Positions 7-48,838 of a stretch of 60,963 bases of DNA are shown here, one piece after another. Positions within the stretch are counted from its first letter, which is position 1. Each line of letters opens with the position of its first letter. The translations under genes were made by a program, and so were the position numbers. The notes under the pieces were generated by a model. The model was not told the origin of the DNA. It ran no database searches and saw only the letters and a program-made list of their open reading frames with translations. This stretch comes from Desulfobacca sp. GTDB taxonomy: Bacteria > Desulfobacterota > Desulfobaccia > Desulfobaccales > Desulfobaccaceae. The stretch spans positions 1 to 60,963 of the forward strand of contig JAQVHY010000003.1 in NCBI GenBank assembly GCA_028695935.1. The letters are read 5' to 3'.

Positions 7-441
7 CTAGGCCTTATGGGCGGCGCCTCCGTTTTTGACCGGACTGGGTCCCAGGGCCCGAATCTTGCCGGTCATCTCCTGAGCGATGCGGGCGAAGTGC
101 GGGACTTCTCCGGTCATGATGTAACGCATCTCTAACCGCTCGCTGCCGATTTCCAGATCGTCCAGGATCTTTTTGGTATATTGCAACCTTTTCTTAGCCA
201 CCAGGTTGCCGGTTTTGTGATGACATTCGCCTTCTTTGCAGGCCACCACATAAACGCCGTCGGCTCCGTCTTGGAAAGCCCGCAGCAGGTGGATGACATC
301 AATCCTTCCGGTGCAGGGCACTTCAATGATGGAGACATTGGTGGGATAACTTAAACCTTGCTCGCCTGCCTTATCGGCCATTTCATAAGGGCAGAAATGA
401 CAGGTATAAGCAATAATCGTTGGCTCAAAAGCTTCGCTCAT
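7..441 (-). CDS. MvhD/FlpD-like hydrogenase iron-sulfur (delta) subunit
   Basis: A 144-residue protein of the methyl-viologen-reducing hydrogenase delta-subunit family, a small iron-sulfur protein that passes electrons to HdrA in flavin-based bifurcating complexes. The cysteines of the family are visible: CHFC near residue 14, PCTGRID near 43, and CKEGECHHKTGN near 68-80. The length is normal for a stand-alone MvhD. An AAGGAG-type ribosome site precedes the ATG. It is the third gene of a leftward unit after a tandem HdrA protein and a second MvhD-like protein, so it is inferred to dock on that HdrA. The stop codon is 7 bases from the window edge, and further operon genes may lie outside. Family assignment is firm; the electron partner is unknown. 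Confidence 0.9.
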   Translation of the reverse strand: MSEAFEPTIIAYTCHFCPYEMADKAGEQGLSYPTNVSIIEVPCTGRIDVIHLLRAFQDGADGVYVVACKEGECHHKTGNLVAKKRLQYTKKILDDLEIGSERLEMRYIMTGEVPHFARIAQEMTGKIRALGPSPVKNGGAAHKA

Positions 442-486
442 TCCCCTACTCCTTCTGGCAAAATCTTCCGATTCTACCTTGCCATC

Positions 487-948
487 TTAGGTCTGAGTCA
501 CCATGGGCCGGAGCGCCGCGGCGACGTTCTCCCCAGGCCTTGACCCGCTTAGCGGGTTAGGCCCTAATTCCTTGATTCTGGCGGTCATTTCCTGGGCAAT
601 TTCCGTAAATCTAGGCCCCATGCTGGCGGATAGATTATACATTGCCACCCGGTCAGCGCCGAGGCCCAGATCATCCAGAATCTCTTTCACCCGTTCCACT
701 TTACGCCGGGCCCGGAAATTGCCGGTCCGAAAATGACACTCCCCTTCCCGACACCCAGCTACCAGGACTCCATCTGCGCCGTATTGAAAAGCCCGTAACA
801 GATGGATGGTCTTGATCCGCCCCGAACAAGGGATTTGGATGATCAAGACATTAGCCGGATAACTTAACCGCATGGATCCGGCCAGATCCGCCGCCGCATA
901 AGCACAAAAATGGCAACAGAAAGCCAGGATTATCGGTTCGAAAACTAT
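487..948 (-). CDS. MvhD/FlpD-like iron-sulfur subunit with non-canonical start
   Basis: The ORF track starts this gene at 873, which cuts off the conserved N-terminus. Reading in frame upstream gives ..VFEPIILAFCCHFCAYAAADLAGS, which aligns with the start of the neighbouring MvhD gene and carries its first cysteine motif. No ATG, GTG or TTG exists in the extension. The best-placed codon is ATA at 948-946, about 8 bases after the purine run GGGGAAAGG, giving about 153 residues. Other motifs are PCSGRIK and GCREGECHFRTGN. It lies between the tandem HdrA gene and the first MvhD gene, with short gaps that suggest one transcript. The ATA could be a true rare start, a sequencing error for ATG, or a sign of decay. 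The family is sure; the start is not. Confidence 0.8.
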   Translation of the reverse strand: MVFEPIILAFCCHFCAYAAADLAGSMRLSYPANVLIIQIPCSGRIKTIHLLRAFQYGADGVLVAGCREGECHFRTGNFRARRKVERVKEILDDLGLGADRVAMYNLSASMGPRFTEIAQEMTARIKELGPNPLSGSRPGENVAAALRPMVTQT

Positions 949-1026
949 GTTTAAGACCTTTCCCCGGGTAATCAGCCCGGTTTGCCCTTCCTAATTGGCT
1001 ATAGGTGGTGCGCCTCTTTACCACCT

Positions 1027-3873
1027 TCAACCGGCCGCTTCGGCTAACAGGGCATCGCATTTGGCCAGCAACTGGGCATCAGTATAGCTCTGCAAGGTAA
1101 TGGCCTTGGCCGGACATTCCGCCGGACAGATACCACAACCCTGGCAGCGGGCCGGATCGATCACCGAGTAGCCGTCTTCACAGATATAGGGCACCTCGTA
1201 CGGACAGGCCCGCACACAGATCAGACAGGCGGCACAGATGTCCTTATCCACTACCGCCACCACCCCGCCGATGCGCTGGCGCTCAGCGGCCAGCACGGTT
1301 AAGGCCCGACCGGCCGCGGCCTGGGCCTGGGCGATGGTCTCGGTGATCAGTTTGGGCGCGTGGGCCAAACCGCACATATAGACGCCTTCGGTGAAGAAAT
1401 CTATAGGCCGTTGTTTTAAATGGACTTCCTGGAACCAGCCCAGGTTATCACGCTCCAGCTTCATGGTCTGGGCTAAGGCCTCGTTGTCACCGGGCACCGC
1501 GCCGGTGCTTAAGGCCAGGATATCGGGACTGAGGGTAACCTCGCGGTCCAAGATCAGATCTTTAAAGCGAATGCTTAACCGACCGCCTCTGTCCTCGGCA
1601 ATCGGCGGCTCTTGACGCCGATAACGGAACAACATGACCCCTTGCTTGCGGGCTTCCTGATAATAATCTTCCATCAGCCCATAGGTGCGCATATCGCGGT
1701 ACAGGATAAAGACATTTGCTTCGGGATTTAGCTTTTTGATATGTAAAGCGTTTTTGATCGCCGCCTGGCAACAGATGCGGCTGCAATTGGGGTTTTCCTG
1801 ATTCCGGGAGCCGACGCACTGGATCATGGCGATACTTTTCCAGCCCCTGGCCTCCTCCGGTTTAGTGGATAGACGCTCTCCCAATTCCAGTTGCGTCACC
1901 ACGGCCGGATTCTGACCATATAAATATTCCTTGGGTTTATAGGGCTCAGCCCCGGAGGCGACAATGGCGACGCCATGCCGGAGCTCCCGGGTGTCCCCAG
2001 CTACCTTAATTTTTGAGGTAAAGTCACCCTTTATCCCTTTAAATTCAACGATCTCGCTATTGGTCAGGACCTCGATCTGCGGATGGGCCTGGACCTGGGC
2101 AATCAGGTCCTGGAGGTAGGCCTGGACATCATCGCCCTCAATAGTGTTATAGAGACGGCGGGCGATGCCTCCCAGTTCTCCGGTCTTTTCGATCAGGGTA
2201 ACGGGAAAACCTTGCTGGGCCAGACTTAGGGCGGCATTCAGGCCGCCGATGCCGCCGCCCACGACCAGACCACTTCTGGTGACCGGCACCTCGGCTTCGC
2301 TAATCGGTTGCCGCAGGTTGGCGTCGGCGACGGCCATGCGGATCAGACCCTTGGCCTTTTGGGTAGCCTTCGCAGGTTCACCTTTATGGACCCAGGCAAC
2401 CTGTTCCCGAATATTGGTCATTTCCATCAGATACTTATTGAGACCGGCACTCTGCACAATATCCTGATACTGTTGCCGGTAATTGCGGACCGAACCCGCG
2501 GCCACCACCACCCGGTTGAGGTTGTTTTGCTGGATAATGTCCTTCATCTTTGCCGGGCCACCGGGGTTGCACAAGAACTCTCCGATTTCGGCCAGGGCAA
2601 CGTTAGCCAGGGTTTTGGCATAAGAGGCCAAAGCCGGAAGGTCTAGACTGCTGGAATCAATCCCACAACTATCAATAAATACTCCCACCCGAGGAGCTTC
2701 ACCGGAGACCTCACGTTCCGCCGGATAGCTCTTGGGTTTGGCCACCGTGCCCCGGACGTTATTTAGATCCGCCGACACCGCGGCCACCGCGGCCGAGGCC
2801 TGGGTTACGGATTCGGGAATATTTAACGGATTCTGAAAAGCCCCGCACACATAGATACCCGGCCGGTTGGTCTTTACCGGCTGGAAGGTGGAAGTCTGGG
2901 CAAAATTATGTTGGTTAAGTTCAACCCCTAGTTTATGGGCCAACTCCTGGGTCGCCTTGGTGATTTGCATACCTACGGACAGCACCACCAGGTCGTAGAC
3001 CTCAACCTGGCTCTGACCGGTATCATCAATGTACTTTAGACTTAAGTTATGGTTTTCTACCGGGTCGATAGTATGGATGCGGGAGCGGATCAGTCGCACC
3101 CCTAAATTCTCCGCCCGGTGCAGATATAGCTCAAAATCCTTGCCAAAGGTGCGGATATCCATAAAAAAGATGCTGGTCTCGGGCGGCTCCGGACACAGTT
3201 CCTTGGCCATCATGGCTTCTTTAAGCGCATACATGCAGCAGATCGAAGAACAATAGGCATTATCGCCATGATGAATGTCCCGGGAACCCACGCATTGGAA
3301 CCAGGCAATCTTTTTGGCCTCCTGACCGTCAGACGGGCGTAGGAGACGGCCGCCGGTGGGACCGGTACCCGACAAGAGGCGTTCAAATTCTAGGCTATTG
3401 ATGACATTAGGATAGTCAGCATAATGATAAACATCATATATGGTTGGATCAAAGACCTCATAGCCAGGAGCCAGAATAACGGCCCCTATCTTTAGGTTTC
3501 GGGCTTGGGACTCCGAGCCGACCCGGACCTGGGCCTGGAAGTTTCCTGGTTCCCCCTCTAATTTCTGGAGGTCAGCCTGGGGCAGGAACTCGATAAAGGG
3601 ATGGCGGGTAACTTCCACAAACCCATGGGTATCCTGTTTCGGGCAGACCATACAGAGGAAACAGTCATGGGTGGGAAACATCTTGTCCAGTTCTGCGGTG
3701 ACCCCGCCAACCTTGGCGGTTTTTTCCAATAAATAAACATAATAACCCGAGTTGGCCAAATCTTCGGCGGCCTGGACGCCTGTCACCCCGGCTCCAACTA
3801 CCAGGACGGCGCCGCTAGGACCCCCACTCTGGCCTGGATTCGACCCACTTTTTTCTATACCTCGCTCCGCCAT
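1027..3873 (-). CDS. Tandem HdrA-like FAD/iron-sulfur protein (HdrA-HdrA fusion)
   Basis: A 948-residue flavoprotein of the heterodisulfide reductase subunit A family. Two FAD-binding halves are visible: VVGAGVTGVQAAEDLA near residue 25 and VVGGGIGGLNAALSLA a little past the middle. Each is followed by the family CVGSR...CS.ICC signature. The second half begins with a recognisable HdrA N-terminal domain, but two usual cysteines are replaced (AAGSVRNY for AACSPxxH, and REQVAWVH for REHCSWVH). The internal ferredoxin insert of ordinary HdrA is also absent. The C-terminus has two [4Fe-4S] motifs, CAACLICVRAC and CQGCGICPAEC. Typical HdrA is about 650 residues, so this is a fusion, comparable to a QmoA/QmoB-like arrangement in one chain. 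It heads an operon with two MvhD-like genes. Cytoplasmic electron transfer is inferred; the substrates are unknown. Confidence 0.88.
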   Translation of the reverse strand: MAERGIEKSGSNPGQSGGPSGAVLVVGAGVTGVQAAEDLANSGYYVYLLEKTAKVGGVTAELDKMFPTHDCFLCMVCPKQDTHGFVEVTRHPFIEFLPQADLQKLEGEPGNFQAQVRVGSESQARNLKIGAVILAPGYEVFDPTIYDVYHYADYPNVINSLEFERLLSGTGPTGGRLLRPSDGQEAKKIAWFQCVGSRDIHHGDNAYCSSICCMYALKEAMMAKELCPEPPETSIFFMDIRTFGKDFELYLHRAENLGVRLIRSRIHTIDPVENHNLSLKYIDDTGQSQVEVYDLVVLSVGMQITKATQELAHKLGVELNQHNFAQTSTFQPVKTNRPGIYVCGAFQNPLNIPESVTQASAAVAAVSADLNNVRGTVAKPKSYPAEREVSGEAPRVGVFIDSCGIDSSSLDLPALASYAKTLANVALAEIGEFLCNPGGPAKMKDIIQQNNLNRVVVAAGSVRNYRQQYQDIVQSAGLNKYLMEMTNIREQVAWVHKGEPAKATQKAKGLIRMAVADANLRQPISEAEVPVTRSGLVVGGGIGGLNAALSLAQQGFPVTLIEKTGELGGIARRLYNTIEGDDVQAYLQDLIAQVQAHPQIEVLTNSEIVEFKGIKGDFTSKIKVAGDTRELRHGVAIVASGAEPYKPKEYLYGQNPAVVTQLELGERLSTKPEEARGWKSIAMIQCVGSRNQENPNCSRICCQAAIKNALHIKKLNPEANVFILYRDMRTYGLMEDYYQEARKQGVMLFRYRRQEPPIAEDRGGRLSIRFKDLILDREVTLSPDILALSTGAVPGDNEALAQTMKLERDNLGWFQEVHLKQRPIDFFTEGVYMCGLAHAPKLITETIAQAQAAAGRALTVLAAERQRIGGVVAVVDKDICAACLICVRACPYEVPYICEDGYSVIDPARCQGCGICPAECPAKAITLQSYTDAQLLAKCDALLAEAAG

Positions 3874-43964: not shown

Positions 43965-45608
43965 TTATTGGCCTCCGGGTCGACTGGCTTTGGCTAACAG
44001 GGCATTAAACATATTGAGGACTCGGGCCGCGACGCCGCTGCCCTGGCATACCGTGGTAGTGATATCTTGCGGACCCTGGCAGGTCCCGGCCAGGAACACG
44101 CCGGGGAGCGTAGAGTCCAGGGGATGCAACACCGGTTCCCGACATTGGTAAAAACCTAGCCCATCGCGGGCCGGGGCCGGACCGGCAAAAGGTAAATTCT
44201 CCTTGGGGGCTTCCAATCCCACCGCTAAAACGACTAAATCCGCGGTAAGCTGGGCGCGACGGCCGGTATGTTGGTTTTCGTAAGCAATTACCGCCTGGCC
44301 GGTCTCATCTTCCTGGATGCGCCCCGGTAAGCCCTTGATAAATTTCACCCCGGCCTGCCGGGCGCGCTGGTAGAGTTCTTCAAAGCCTTTGCCCGAAGTG
44401 CGGATATCATTATAGAAGATAGTCACTTCGGCCTCGGGCTGATGTTCCAGGGCCAGCATCGCTTCCTTGATCGAGGCCGTGCAGCAATAGCCCGAGCAGT
44501 AAGGTAAAAAGCGGCGGTCCCGGGAGCCGACGCATTGGATAAAGGCCAGGCGCCGCACCGGGCGGCCGTCGGGCGTGACCAGACCGCCTAAGGTCGGGCC
44601 CGAAGCACAGACAATCCGTTCGTATTCCAAATTGGTGACCACCGTCGGGATGCGGCCATAGCCATATTCACTTTTGATGCTGGGGTCAAAAGGCCGGGCC
44701 CCGGTAGCCAGGATAATGGCCCCGACCGTGAGCTGCCGGGATTGGGGTTCTTCTTCTAAATTAATCGCCTGATGTTCGCAGGCCTTGACGCACAACTGGC
44801 AGTCAATACAATATTCCTTGTCGATGGCCGCTCTGAGCGGCACGGCCTGGGCAAACCAGATGCGGATACATTTGCTGGGCTTGAGGTCCAGATCCCAGCG
44901 GCTGGGAACAATTATCGGACAGACTTCGGTACAGGAGCCGCAACCCACACATTTGGTCATATCCACATAGCGAGGTTTCAGGGTCAGATCTACCTCAAAG
45001 CCCCCGGCCTGCCCGGCAATCCGATCGATGCTAACGTAGGTCAACAATTCAATATTGGGATGACTGGCCACTTCCACCAGTTTGGGACCCAGGATGCAGA
45101 TCGAGCAGTCCAGGGTGGGAAAGGTCTTGTCTAATTGGGCCATAATGCCGCCGATGCTCAAGGCCCGGTCCACCAGATAGACCTTATGCCCGGCCCTGGC
45201 CAGATCCAAAGCCGCCTGGCAGCCGCCGACGCCGCCCCCAACAATCAAAACCGCGGGAGAAACCGGAGCAATCGACGGCTCTGGGTGGAAAGCCGTGGTC
45301 TGGGCCAGGGTTAACGCGGCCACGGCGCTCTCCAGATCACTATAAGCCAAGAGATCAACTACCCGCAGCGCGGCCGCCGGGCCCAGGCGTTGGAACAGCC
45401 CGGCATGACGCTCCGGGCCACAGGCGGCAATAATCCACTCCCCGGTTGGGCTGGCCAGCCGCGGGCGCAACTGCATCAGGCCGTCGGGGGTGCACAGCGG
45501 CGGGAGCAATTGGACCTCGGCCCCGTCCCGCTCCAGCCAACTAACCAGAGCCTGGGCGTCAAGGGCCAGCTCCGGGCACTGGCAAACTATGATCTTGACC
45601 TTAGCCAT
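43965..45608 (-). CDS. HdrA-like FAD/iron-sulfur protein (QmoA-like size)
   Basis: A 547-residue HdrA-family flavoprotein. The N-terminal 110 residues look like a shortened HdrA iron-sulfur domain with CQCPE, LCTPDG and AACGPERH. The FAD motif is LIVGGGVGGCQAALDLA. Between the two FAD parts is a ferredoxin insert with CVGCGSCTEVC and CIDCQLCVKAC. The family motif CVGSRD...YCSGYCC and the C-terminal VFLAGTCQGPQDI are present. There is no MvhD part. The start overlaps the stop of the HdrA-MvhD gene by 8 bases, so the two are coupled and probably form a heterodimer like QmoA/QmoB. Confidence 0.92.
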   Translation of the reverse strand: MAKVKIIVCQCPELALDAQALVSWLERDGAEVQLLPPLCTPDGLMQLRPRLASPTGEWIIAACGPERHAGLFQRLGPAAALRVVDLLAYSDLESAVAALTLAQTTAFHPEPSIAPVSPAVLIVGGGVGGCQAALDLARAGHKVYLVDRALSIGGIMAQLDKTFPTLDCSICILGPKLVEVASHPNIELLTYVSIDRIAGQAGGFEVDLTLKPRYVDMTKCVGCGSCTEVCPIIVPSRWDLDLKPSKCIRIWFAQAVPLRAAIDKEYCIDCQLCVKACEHQAINLEEEPQSRQLTVGAIILATGARPFDPSIKSEYGYGRIPTVVTNLEYERIVCASGPTLGGLVTPDGRPVRRLAFIQCVGSRDRRFLPYCSGYCCTASIKEAMLALEHQPEAEVTIFYNDIRTSGKGFEELYQRARQAGVKFIKGLPGRIQEDETGQAVIAYENQHTGRRAQLTADLVVLAVGLEAPKENLPFAGPAPARDGLGFYQCREPVLHPLDSTLPGVFLAGTCQGPQDITTTVCQGSGVAARVLNMFNALLAKASRPGGQ

Positions 45609-47961
45609 CGGTAGCCTGTGGTTCTTCCTCGGTCTGGTGCTTTAATTCCGCGGCCAGTTCATTGATAATCTGTTGAAAATTCCGGCCTTCGGTAGCAGAC
45701 ACCCAGGCCAGGCGCAGGCGCTGGAGGTCGATACCTTTCTTGGCCAATTTTTTCTTGAGCTTTTCGATCCGGGCCAAAGCCCGCAGATTACCGGAGACAT
45801 AATGGCAATCACCCGGGGGATGGCAACCAGAGATCAGCACCCGACCCGCGCCCTGGGCCAAGGCGTGCAGAATAAATTTTTGGTGCACCCGACCCGCGCA
45901 CATATAGCGAATGATGCGGACCGCGGGAGAATACTGCAAGCGCGACACTCCGGCAAAATCCGCGCCGGCATAGGAACACCAATTGCAGCAAAAGGCCAGA
46001 ATCTTATCTTCGGGATGATCGGCCAGGGCCTCGTCAATCTGGGCCATAATCATCTCATCGGTAAAGCCGCGGGCAATCACCGCGCCCGCGGGGCAGGCCC
46101 CGGCACAGACCCCGCAACCCTTACACGCGGCCTCAATGATCTGGGCCTTTTGCTTTTTGCCCTCGCCCACCATTTTGATGGCCTGAAAAGGGCACTCATT
46201 ATAACAGGTCTCGCAGCCGATGCACTTTTCCGGGTCGATTTCGCAGACAATGCCGTCCAGGGTAATGGTCTCGTAGGCAAACAACGATAAAATCTTGGCC
46301 GCGGCGCCGCTGGCCGAAGTGATTGATTCCGACAAGTCCTTGGGTCCTTGACAGGCCCCGGCCAGGTAGATGCCATCCAGCACGGTCTCCAGGGGGCGCA
46401 GCTTGGGATGGGCCTCCAGGAAAAAGCCGTCATCGCTGATCGGCAGTTTAAGCACGGCGCGCAACGGCGCGCCCCGCCCCGGTACCATGCCCACGGCCAG
46501 GACCGCCAGATCGACTTTATCCTCGCTTGCCGTCTGGAATAATTCGTTATCCGCCCGGATAATGACCCGACCGTCCTGATCCGCCTGAACTTCCTGGACC
46601 TGGCCCCGGATAAACAGCACTCCCGCTTCTCGGGCCTGGTTATAAAGGGCTTCCCAATCTTTCTTGGTGGTCCGCAGATCACGATAATAAATCCGGATGT
46701 TGGCCTGGGGCAAACGGCTTTTTAATTCCAAGGCCTGCCGTACCGCGGTCGGACAGCAGACCCGGGAACAGTAGCGGTTGCCCTCCTCTTCCCGGGAGCC
46801 GACACAGAGAATAAAGGCGATCTCCTGGGGCGGGGTAGACTCGCCCGGGGCCAGCACCTGGCCGGCGGTCGGTCCATCCGGAGCCAACAGGCGCTCCAAA
46901 GCCACCGTGGTAATCACCTTGGGAAGCGCGGCCCAGGACTCATAGCGGCTGCCTTGCGGGTCAAAGGGTAGAAAACCGCTGGCCACCACCATACTTCCAA
47001 ACCGTAAGTGGTGTTCGACCTCTTGAGCCGCTAAGTCAATGGCCTGGCGCGGACAGGCCGGGACGCATAGACCGCAACGGTTGCAATGTTCCTGATCGAT
47101 CACGTATGAAGCCGGAAACGCGTGCGGGGCCGGTAGATAAATGGCCTGGCGCGGGCTTAACCCCTGTTGCCGCTCATCCGGGACCTCCACCGGACAGACT
47201 TCTAGGCACTGGCCGCAACGATCGCAATCTTCATTCACCAGAGGCAAGGATTGCTGCACCGTCACCTGAAAATCGCCGACGTGACCGCTGACCTCAGTGA
47301 CTTCACTACTGGTCAGCACCTTGATGCCGGGATGCAGCGACACCGCGGCCATCATCGGGTTGATCAGGCTCAAGGCGGTCTGCCCACGGGGAAAGGTGTG
47401 GTGCAGGGCGTTGGCCATACCGCCCAGCACGGGCTGACACTCCACCAGGGTCACGGGGAAACCGGCATTGGCAATATCCAAGGCCGCCCGCAATCCGGCC
47501 GGACCGCCGCCGATGACCAAAGCCTGGCGGTAGAGCGGCACGACGCGATCAGTAAGGGGGCGGGCCAGGCGCACCCGGGCCAACCCCATCTTGATTAGCT
47601 CCAGGGCCTTATCCTGAGCCGCTTCCGGCTCCTGCATATGCACCCAGGAACAGTGTTCCCGGATGTTGACCATCTCCAGCAGATAGGGATTGACCCCGGC
47701 CTCGATCAGCAAGCGCCGAAAAGTCGGCTCATGGAGCTTGGGCGAACAGGCTGCGATCACCAGTCGATTCAGGCCCTGTTGCTGAATATCTTCCAGAATC
47801 TCGCGTTGCCCGGCCTCGGAGCAGGTGTAAAGGTGATGACGGCAAACCGTGACCTGGGGCAAATCCTGAGTCTGGGCGACCAGCGCTTCGGGACTGATGA
47901 CGCCGGCGATGTTTAATCCACAGTGGCAGATATAGAGGCCGATGCGAACTTCTTCGTCCAT
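45601..47961 (-). CDS. HdrA-MvhD fusion flavoprotein (HdrA2/QmoB-like)
   Basis: A complete HdrA fused to MvhD, about 786 residues. All N-terminal HdrA cysteines are kept (CHCGLNI, YTCSEAGQ, AACSPKLHEP, REHCSWVH). FAD motif: LVIGGGPAGLRAALDIA. Insert ferredoxin: CDRCGQCLEVC and CNRCGLCVPAC. C-terminal ferredoxin: CIGCETCYNEC and CKGCGVCAGAC. From about residue 650 the MvhD part has FCCNWCSYAGADFAG, YMCAGRVHQ and GCHPPGDCHYVSGN. The ATG at 47961 is preferred to the track TTG at 47970. Such fusions take part in flavin-based electron bifurcation with HdrBC, a hydrogenase or formate dehydrogenase, none of which is here. Confidence 0.93.
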   Translation of the reverse strand: MDEEVRIGLYICHCGLNIAGVISPEALVAQTQDLPQVTVCRHHLYTCSEAGQREILEDIQQQGLNRLVIAACSPKLHEPTFRRLLIEAGVNPYLLEMVNIREHCSWVHMQEPEAAQDKALELIKMGLARVRLARPLTDRVVPLYRQALVIGGGPAGLRAALDIANAGFPVTLVECQPVLGGMANALHHTFPRGQTALSLINPMMAAVSLHPGIKVLTSSEVTEVSGHVGDFQVTVQQSLPLVNEDCDRCGQCLEVCPVEVPDERQQGLSPRQAIYLPAPHAFPASYVIDQEHCNRCGLCVPACPRQAIDLAAQEVEHHLRFGSMVVASGFLPFDPQGSRYESWAALPKVITTVALERLLAPDGPTAGQVLAPGESTPPQEIAFILCVGSREEEGNRYCSRVCCPTAVRQALELKSRLPQANIRIYYRDLRTTKKDWEALYNQAREAGVLFIRGQVQEVQADQDGRVIIRADNELFQTASEDKVDLAVLAVGMVPGRGAPLRAVLKLPISDDGFFLEAHPKLRPLETVLDGIYLAGACQGPKDLSESITSASGAAAKILSLFAYETITLDGIVCEIDPEKCIGCETCYNECPFQAIKMVGEGKKQKAQIIEAACKGCGVCAGACPAGAVIARGFTDEMIMAQIDEALADHPEDKILAFCCNWCSYAGADFAGVSRLQYSPAVRIIRYMCAGRVHQKFILHALAQGAGRVLISGCHPPGDCHYVSGNLRALARIEKLKKKLAKKGIDLQRLRLAWVSATEGRNFQQIINELAAELKHQTEEEPQATDG

Positions 47962-47976
47962 AAATTCCAAATTTTA

Positions 47977-47997
47977 GGGGCGGGATGACCCCGCCCT
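47977..47997. repeat. Intercistronic GC-rich hairpin overlapping the polyferredoxin stop codon
   Basis: GGGCGGG-ATGAC-CCCGCCC forms a perfect 7-bp stem between the polyferredoxin and HdrA-MvhD genes and includes part of the polyferredoxin TAG stop. It resembles the TAGGGG...CCCCTA palindromes elsewhere. It could reduce read-through or protect the upstream mRNA. Confidence 0.7.
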
Positions 47998-48838
47998 AAT
48001 TGCCGATGAGTTTGGCCACGGCCTGCTCCCAGGCCTGGGAATATTCTCCCGGCTCGGCGACTACTTCTTCCCGAATCAGCGTAATGGCATCCTGATCGCA
48101 GATATTGAGGCAGACTCCGCAGTAAGCACAATCTTCAAACCTGAGGAAAACTCGCTCGCCTTCCCGGACGATCGCCTTGGTCGGGCACAAGTTAATACAT
48201 TTATTACAATCCGCCGGGCACTTGGCGTCGTCGATGATCAGCCGCCCCAAAAATTGGGGATTGACCTCAATGGCATCATAGTCACAGGACTGCAAACATT
48301 GGGTGCACCTGAGGCACAGCTCGGGCTGGGGCAGCACATTTTCGCCGGCCTCATCCCAGACAATGGCCTGCCGCTGGCAAGTTTCCACACAGACCTGACA
48401 ATGTTTGGGACAGTCCGTCTGGGTATTGGGGACCAGCTTGAGCTCGCGGCGGCACCAGCGCCACTCGGTATCCGGATTAATCGGACAGGGCAGCGGACAC
48501 TTGCTGGTGTCTATGTTAATTTTGGGTAAAAATGGCGCCAGACCCTGTTGATCAGCAAAAATAGTTTTGGGTTGCTGATTATAGTTGAGGCTGATGGCCG
48601 CTACCGGGCAGAAATGAGAACAGATTTCACATAAGACACAGAGCCGGGGATCAATGGTGATATCCAGGTCTTCCTCGCCGCAGATAATGGTCACTGCACT
48701 CCGGGGACAGACGAGAGAACAGATGTCACACTTCAGACAGGCCTGTTTGTCCAGGCTTAAGGTTACCTGGTCAACATACATCTGGAGACTGAGTTCCAGA
48801 TGATCCGCGGTTTCTCGTTTGGCTACCCTGGCTTTCAT
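47996..48838 (-). CDS. Polyferredoxin with six [4Fe-4S] motifs
   Basis: A 280-residue iron-sulfur electron wire. Six four-cysteine motifs can be counted: CLKCDICSLVC, CVLCEICSHFC, CPKHCQVCVETC, CLRCTQCLQSC, CPADCNKCINLC and CAYCGVCLNIC. Each is followed by a Cys/Pro-x-x-A-I type turn or a variant of it. Motifs 3 and 5 have C-x3-C spacing, as in methanogen polyferredoxins (FwdF or MvhB types). A further loop (CPLPCPINPDTEWRWC) has extra cysteines. It is the first gene of the operon with two HdrA proteins and probably carries electrons to or from them. AT-rich sequence upstream contains the promoter region, but no clear -35/-10 pair was settled. Confidence 0.9.
   Translation of the reverse strand: MKARVAKRETADHLELSLQMYVDQVTLSLDKQACLKCDICSLVCPRSAVTIICGEEDLDITIDPRLCVLCEICSHFCPVAAISLNYNQQPKTIFADQQGLAPFLPKINIDTSKCPLPCPINPDTEWRWCRRELKLVPNTQTDCPKHCQVCVETCQRQAIVWDEAGENVLPQPELCLRCTQCLQSCDYDAIEVNPQFLGRLIIDDAKCPADCNKCINLCPTKAIVREGERVFLRFEDCAYCGVCLNICDQDAITLIREEVVAEPGEYSQAWEQAVAKLIGN

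Follow-up and report, generated by a model that had tools for sequence, protein, structure and literature searches.

Does the Hdr-type class of methylene-tetrahydrofolate (methylene-THF) reductases (MTHFRs) need electron bifurcation at all? The question can be asked of an enzyme encoded at the left end of a 60,963-nucleotide stretch of DNA from Desulfobacca sp. (assembly GCA_028695935.1, contig JAQVHY010000003.1); the whole stretch is referred to here as the window, and the genome holding it as G000. At positions 7-3873, on the minus strand, an operon encodes a 948-residue tandem HdrA without the inserted ferredoxin domain of its homologues, followed by MvhD-b and then MvhD-a. Judged from gene order, the locus is the electron-transfer module of an Hdr-type MTHFR operon. 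We hold it probable that the ferredoxin exit of this enzyme has been removed and that electrons pass between MetVF and MvhD via flavin, with the quinone pool of the membrane as their most likely source or destination. Bifurcation by Hdr-type MTHFRs has been in question since 2014, the year of the Moorella work; the study of Sporomusa did not settle it.

Assignment of the operon

The contig (G000:C179) begins where the window begins, and the operon is thus cut at its left edge, where the original prediction had hoped for further operon genes. Two sister species (G027 and G028) do have such genes; in them the gene order is hdrAA-mvhD-mvhD-metV-metF and in which MetV matches PF12225 and MetF PF02219. 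Because these operons continue into metV and metF, the genes of the window are assigned to an MTHFR operon. Acetyl-CoA synthase and formate-THF ligase (FTHFS) are present in both genomes, and each has exactly one MetF gene, located in the operon of the window type. Genes for HdrB and HdrC are absent from this operon. They are no strict requirement, since the T. phaeum cluster is also without them, and the operon is a variant, not the six-subunit form of Moorella and Sporomusa.

HdrA of the window type was seen in three species of one genus, and the proteins of G000 and G028 share 90% amino acid identity at a dS of 0.88. The same fusion occurs in the separately assembled genomes G028 and G027, which disposes of a chimera and of an assembly error, the latter being the objection raised when the locus was first described. 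The hdrAA gene of G027 (L225, G027:C120, about position 2616) lacks codons 670-736 and changes frame, by an assembly fault or by a real mutation.

Domain architecture and cluster ligands

To tabulate the ligands, 127 tandem HdrA sequences were aligned with HdrA of M. marburgensis (8rvu). The two flavin adenine dinucleotide (FAD)/TrxR halves that had been predicted are present, and their layout is that of type II: half 1 carries Cys197 and has no N-terminal domain, half 2 is the reverse and carries the C-terminal ferredoxin in addition. This supports the earlier view of an HdrA dimer fused in one chain, a principle that is already published (PMC9012536, PMC12054007). The AF2 model is that of a well-folded chain (pLDDT 84.5, pTM 0.86), and the best Foldseek matches of the predicted protein are all HdrA.

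In half 1 the equivalents of E356 and K409 (E164 and K218), the signature of the bifurcating flavin, are kept together with the FAD-side cluster cysteines (C194/C208/C212/C213). Cys71 and Cys74 are equivalent to Cys194 and Cys197, and Cys77 is additional. Half 2 has no Cys194/197 and retains the four FAD-side cluster cysteines as well as the equivalent of K409 (K713); its residue at E356 is Gly. An inner ferredoxin is missing, as had been noticed, only that it is missing from half 1, where homologues have it, and not from half 2, where none of the tandem HdrAs compared has one. Within the class, a single unbroken match across the insert site is found only in the genus of the window, and the rest of the class retains the inserted ferredoxin.

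The second change concerns the N-terminal domain of half 2. Alignment to HdrA of known structure pinned the ligand losses to N1, changed from VCHCG to IDSCG (Asp401), and N4, changed from AACS to AAGS (Gly460), with N2 (Cys403) and N3 (Cys435) retained. The original prediction had placed AAGS and QVAW correctly. The first is indeed the loss of N4; QVAW replaces no ligand, as M. marburgensis HdrA has HDSW at the position of HCSW and the cysteine there is no family-wide ligand, and the loss of N1 had been overlooked. Two ligands are gone, but the loss of a cluster, as first suggested, does not follow: the site still has five conserved cysteines, with two of the four N-terminal-domain cysteines left and one (Cys77) gained on the opposite half. 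By these residues the N-terminal cluster may be either re-ligated or lost; the cysteine loop (residues 59-89) has a pLDDT below 50 in the AF2 model.

Had half 2 lost its cluster and become a structural scaffold for half 1, as first proposed, the missing N1 and N4 ligands and the Gly at E356 would be expected. This is very improbable. Gly at E356 is also common in fully canonical relatives, and half 2 keeps the four FAD-side cysteines, K713 and all eight cysteines of its C-terminal ferredoxin. Between G000 and G028, dN/dS is 0.062 for the whole HdrA, 0.052 in its N-terminal domain and 0.017 in the C-terminal ferredoxin; the N-terminal domain of half 2 is under strong purifying selection. From its residues and substitution rates, the second half does not appear to be structural.

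Relatives with and without the inserted ferredoxin

Tandem HdrA is very common in the order, with matches in all 29 genomes. Homologous operons whose HdrA keeps every ligand, named beforehand as what would speak against a loss, are the rule in the family at large: all four N-terminal-domain cysteines are present in 57 of the 58 MetV-linked tandem HdrAs with inserted ferredoxin, and as many of these operons have a single MvhD. The lone exception in both respects is a copy in G000 itself (on C159), which lacks N4 and is followed by two MvhD genes. Because the canonical operons retain all four ligands in 57 of 58 cases, the window form is a derived exception within the family. Only canonical tandem HdrAs, and none of the window type, were among the matches listed in a wider contig scan. 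The position of Cys197 in the half-1 loops of L132-L211 is an in-frame TGA, probably selenocysteine (Sec), in 43 of 73 cases (NDCAMU motif); the window type has Cys.

Other Desulfobacterota (L112-L131) also have a tandem HdrA without insert, of 912-1059 residues, mostly 912-977, adjoining mvhD-metV-metF or folD/fhs, the last two genes being recognised from the sequence by reading. In this lineage N1 and N3 are lost, N2 and N4 are retained, and the half-1 loop is rebuilt as YPLCxCC...C. The CxCC...C loop and N2/N4 amount to six conserved cysteines at the site, and the pattern suggests that the N-terminal cluster was re-ligated there rather than lost. In the tree the window type groups with full support with the canonical MetVF-linked proteins. 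Constraining L112-L131 and the window type to one clade costs 57.5 log-likelihood units, and a single origin of all insert-less forms is rejected by the AU test (p=0.003). A second lineage of Desulfobacterota thus lost the ferredoxin insert independently.

An intermediate state is found in a clade of seven loci (L062, L226, L227, L215, L168, L181 and L203), whose inserted ferredoxin is without A4, B2 and B3, ligands of the second cluster, and retains the ligands of the first. Its MetF and MetV are the nearest to the window type among those compared, its MvhD has Cys instead of Sec, as in the window type, and in FastTree it is the sister of the window type with support of 0.86 (HdrA) and 0.96 (concatenated). 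A sister relation of this clade and the window form is probable on these trees.

A third insert-less type (L128 5946-8879 and L122 10405-13416) is followed by one MvhD and is not linked to MetVF. The half-1 loop of these HdrAs contains an extra Cys-rich stretch. Because this pair retains most N-terminal cysteines, insert loss and loss of N-terminal ligands are associated and separable.

Features of the locus and other redox genes of the genome

The coordinates of the locus are given in the table. The two MvhD-like genes that had been predicted after hdrA are confirmed, as both proteins exceed by far the Pfam gathering cut-off of MvhD/FlpD (PF02662, 22.3 bits). MvhD-b is the nearer of the two to the canonical MvhD of MetVF-linked operons. 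It is longer than the listed open reading frame (ORF): homology, including the CCxxC cluster motif, begins upstream of the ATG at 873. No in-frame ATG, GTG or TTG was found before the N-terminal cluster cysteines, and the candidate start is an ATA at 946-948, preceded by GGGGAAAGG.

Table. Features of the window-type operon, with positions in the window.
Feature	Position	Strand	Basis
Tandem (type II) HdrA, 948 aa, without inserted ferredoxin	1027..3873	(-)	ORF; PDB matches HdrA 5odc/8rvu; AF2; Foldseek
Half 1 FAD/TrxR domain, aa 20-380	2734..3816	(-)	alignment; no N-terminal or C-terminal domain
Half-1 loop CFLCMVC: Cys71, Cys74 (= inter-subunit Cys197 of HdrA), extra Cys77	3643..3663	(-)	alignment
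Junction, inserted ferredoxin domain of homologues cleanly absent, about aa 117-126	3496..3525	(-)	alignment
Half-2 N-terminal domain, aa 393-525: Asp401 (N1 lost), Cys403 (N2), Cys435 (N3), Gly460 (N4 lost)	2299..2697	(-)	alignment
Half 2 FAD/TrxR domain, aa 528-865; retains K713 and the cluster cysteines, without Cys194/197	1279..2292	(-)	alignment
C-terminal ferredoxin, 8/8 cysteines	1084..1278	(-)	alignment
MvhD-b, Cys instead of Sec, start non-standard/uncertain (about 948 or further upstream)	487..948	(-)	FlpD 166.6 bits; alignment and tree
MvhD-a, divergent second MvhD, this genus only	7..441	(-)	FlpD 144.8 bits; tree

G000 has further tandem HdrAs on C22, C68 and C159. The canonical copy on C159 has the order hdrAA-mvhD(Sec)-mvhD(Cys)-metV-metF, with an HdrA of 1003 residues that contains the inserted ferredoxin. 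In this operon (L051, 3355-4334) the Sec-containing MvhD precedes its Cys paralog and N4 is Trp; the orthologous operon of G023, a member of the same family, has a single Sec-MvhD and an intact N4. Contamination as the source of the C159 operon is not supported, as its tetranucleotide profile matches that of the window (0.946). The presence of this operon, together with the missing metVF of the window operon in the assembly of G000, would fit a redundant paralog heading for loss, with the C159 operon as the real MTHFR. We consider this scarcely credible, since G027 and G028 have no other MetF, purifying selection is strong and the ORF of G028 is intact.

A Qmo cluster (QmoABC, C141) has an AprA-like gene upstream, recognised by reading the sequence; this is consistent with a sulfate reducer, which the uncultured bacterium of G000 probably is. 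That the window protein is itself a QmoAB fusion was rejected, as QmoABC is encoded separately on C141 and the tree places the window protein among the MetVF-linked HdrAs. The window holds a second Hdr system at 43965-48838 (-) with a 547-residue HdrA, a 789-residue HdrA-MvhD fusion and a 280-residue ferredoxin-like protein. The 547-residue HdrA carries N-terminal cysteines, an inserted ferredoxin and Cys197, and the 789-residue fusion is without Cys197, so that Cys197 is complementary across separate genes. A homologue of the gene for the 547-residue HdrA flanks the window-type operon in G028 (L049 16190-17833).

Proposed mechanism

The fused HdrA would form its own asymmetric dimer. Half 1 would play HdrA', with the flavin that bears the bifurcation signature and the exit, and half 2 would play HdrA, its N-terminal domain and its C-terminal ferredoxin serving as the mobile arm on which MvhD docks. 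The domain expected to hand low-potential electrons to ferredoxin is deleted from half 1; the route MetVF-flavin-MvhD would remain, with no ferredoxin exit, and the most likely electron partner via MvhD would be the quinone pool of the membrane. Electrons are expected to leave HdrA through the inserted ferredoxin (PMC12350162). Chadwick et al. place the N-terminal cluster on the ferredoxin branch (PMC9012536); accounts of its role differ, and only the exit role of the inserted ferredoxin is relied on here. A quinone link is suggested by two precedents: S. ovata, whose HdrA is also without the insert, shows no coupled reduction of ferredoxin or NAD(P) and has 75% of its MvhD in membranes (PMC9430772), and in T. 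phaeum a quinone-linked hdrA-metVF cluster is without hdrBC (PMC6895022). The sequences themselves show the operon, the deleted domain, the changed ligands, the independent recurrence, the purifying selection and the sole MetF of two genomes; we infer the lack of ferredoxin coupling, the quinone link, the direction of flow and the role of the second MvhD.

Several points weigh against this proposal. The main misfit is the conservation of E356/K409 in half 1, which would be needless if all bifurcation were gone. Another low-potential acceptor could dock elsewhere, and HdrB/HdrC could come from another locus, as the C22/C20 cluster has them. The metV and metF genes that should follow the window operon were not found in the G000 assembly, where they would lie past the contig edge; none of the three MetF genes of G000 lies downstream of the window, and this pair would have to be unassembled or lost. 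Finally, the trees give only moderate support to the relation between the window type and the intermediate clade (63 under a C20 mixture model).

The retained E164 and K218 would be accounted for if the complex still bifurcated and had found another low-potential partner, with the second MvhD or MetV taking over the exit role of the lost ferredoxin domain. A divergent second MvhD in the window genus only, the gain of Cys77 and the five cysteines at the N-terminal cluster site also agree with this. On the other hand, neither cluster of the known exit domain is left, the operon has no new ferredoxin domain and the insert-less S. ovata enzyme showed none of the coupled reductions; we regard continued bifurcation as rather unlikely. 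If the ferredoxin exit was indeed removed, the ferredoxin arm may, quite tentatively, have been removed in steps, independently on at least two occasions within this enzyme class, with one cluster lost first and then the whole domain and N-terminal ligands. A bifurcating MTHFR would thereby have become one that is simply linked to quinone, and a second MvhD would have been taken on as the arm cluster was lost; both two-MvhD operons of G000 have lost N4.

Together the genomes form a natural experiment, with an arm-less HdrA beside the only MetF in G027/G028, both forms in G000 and a half-reduced clade. The three HdrA forms bear on which parts of HdrA bifurcation needs, and on how Wood-Ljungdahl sulfate reducers handle the methyl-THF step at -200 mV. 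Earlier publications describe tandem HdrA and its complementary Cys197 logic, the Hdr-type MTHFR and, for Sporomusa, an HdrA without the insert. Set against the open literature searched, the following are new: the insert was lost repeatedly and independently in Desulfobacterota, where a half-reduced clade also occurs; N-terminal ligands changed to match, one cysteine being gained in compensation; two MvhD genes are arranged together; and some genomes have their only MetF in an operon of the window form.

Comparison with known systems

The Hdr-type MTHFR of Sporomusa ovata (HdrCBA-MvhD-MetVF) resembles the window type in its tandem HdrA of about 940 residues without inserted ferredoxin, in the E/K signature of the first half and in having MvhD and MetVF in one cluster (PMC9430772). 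It differs in that its operon contains hdrB and hdrC and one MvhD, whereas the window type has two MvhD and no hdrBC; the loss of N1/N4 in the window type may be a further difference. The enzyme of Moorella thermoacetica (MetVF-HdrBCA-MvhD) shares the fused double HdrA with MetVF and MvhD (PMC9012536, PMC9430772), but its HdrA, of 163 kDa, has a further ferredoxin domain as well as a GltD (NADH) domain.

ANME and methanogens have a type II HdrA (class A3, A6+A12 fusion) that shares with the window type the two TrxR domains and the complementary N-terminal domain and Cys197 (PMC12054007, PMC9012536). The partners of the archaeal proteins are FdhB/molybdopterin proteins and not MetVF, and the window type is without the inserted ferredoxin; type II is defined by two TrxR domains, and the half-1 ferredoxin insert is usual but outside the published definition. 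QmoAB shares the paired FAD subunits and the QmoB-like N-terminal domain. The insert-less HdrAs of L112-L131 differ from the window type in their separate origin, in a single MvhD and in the loss of N1/N3 instead of N1/N4.

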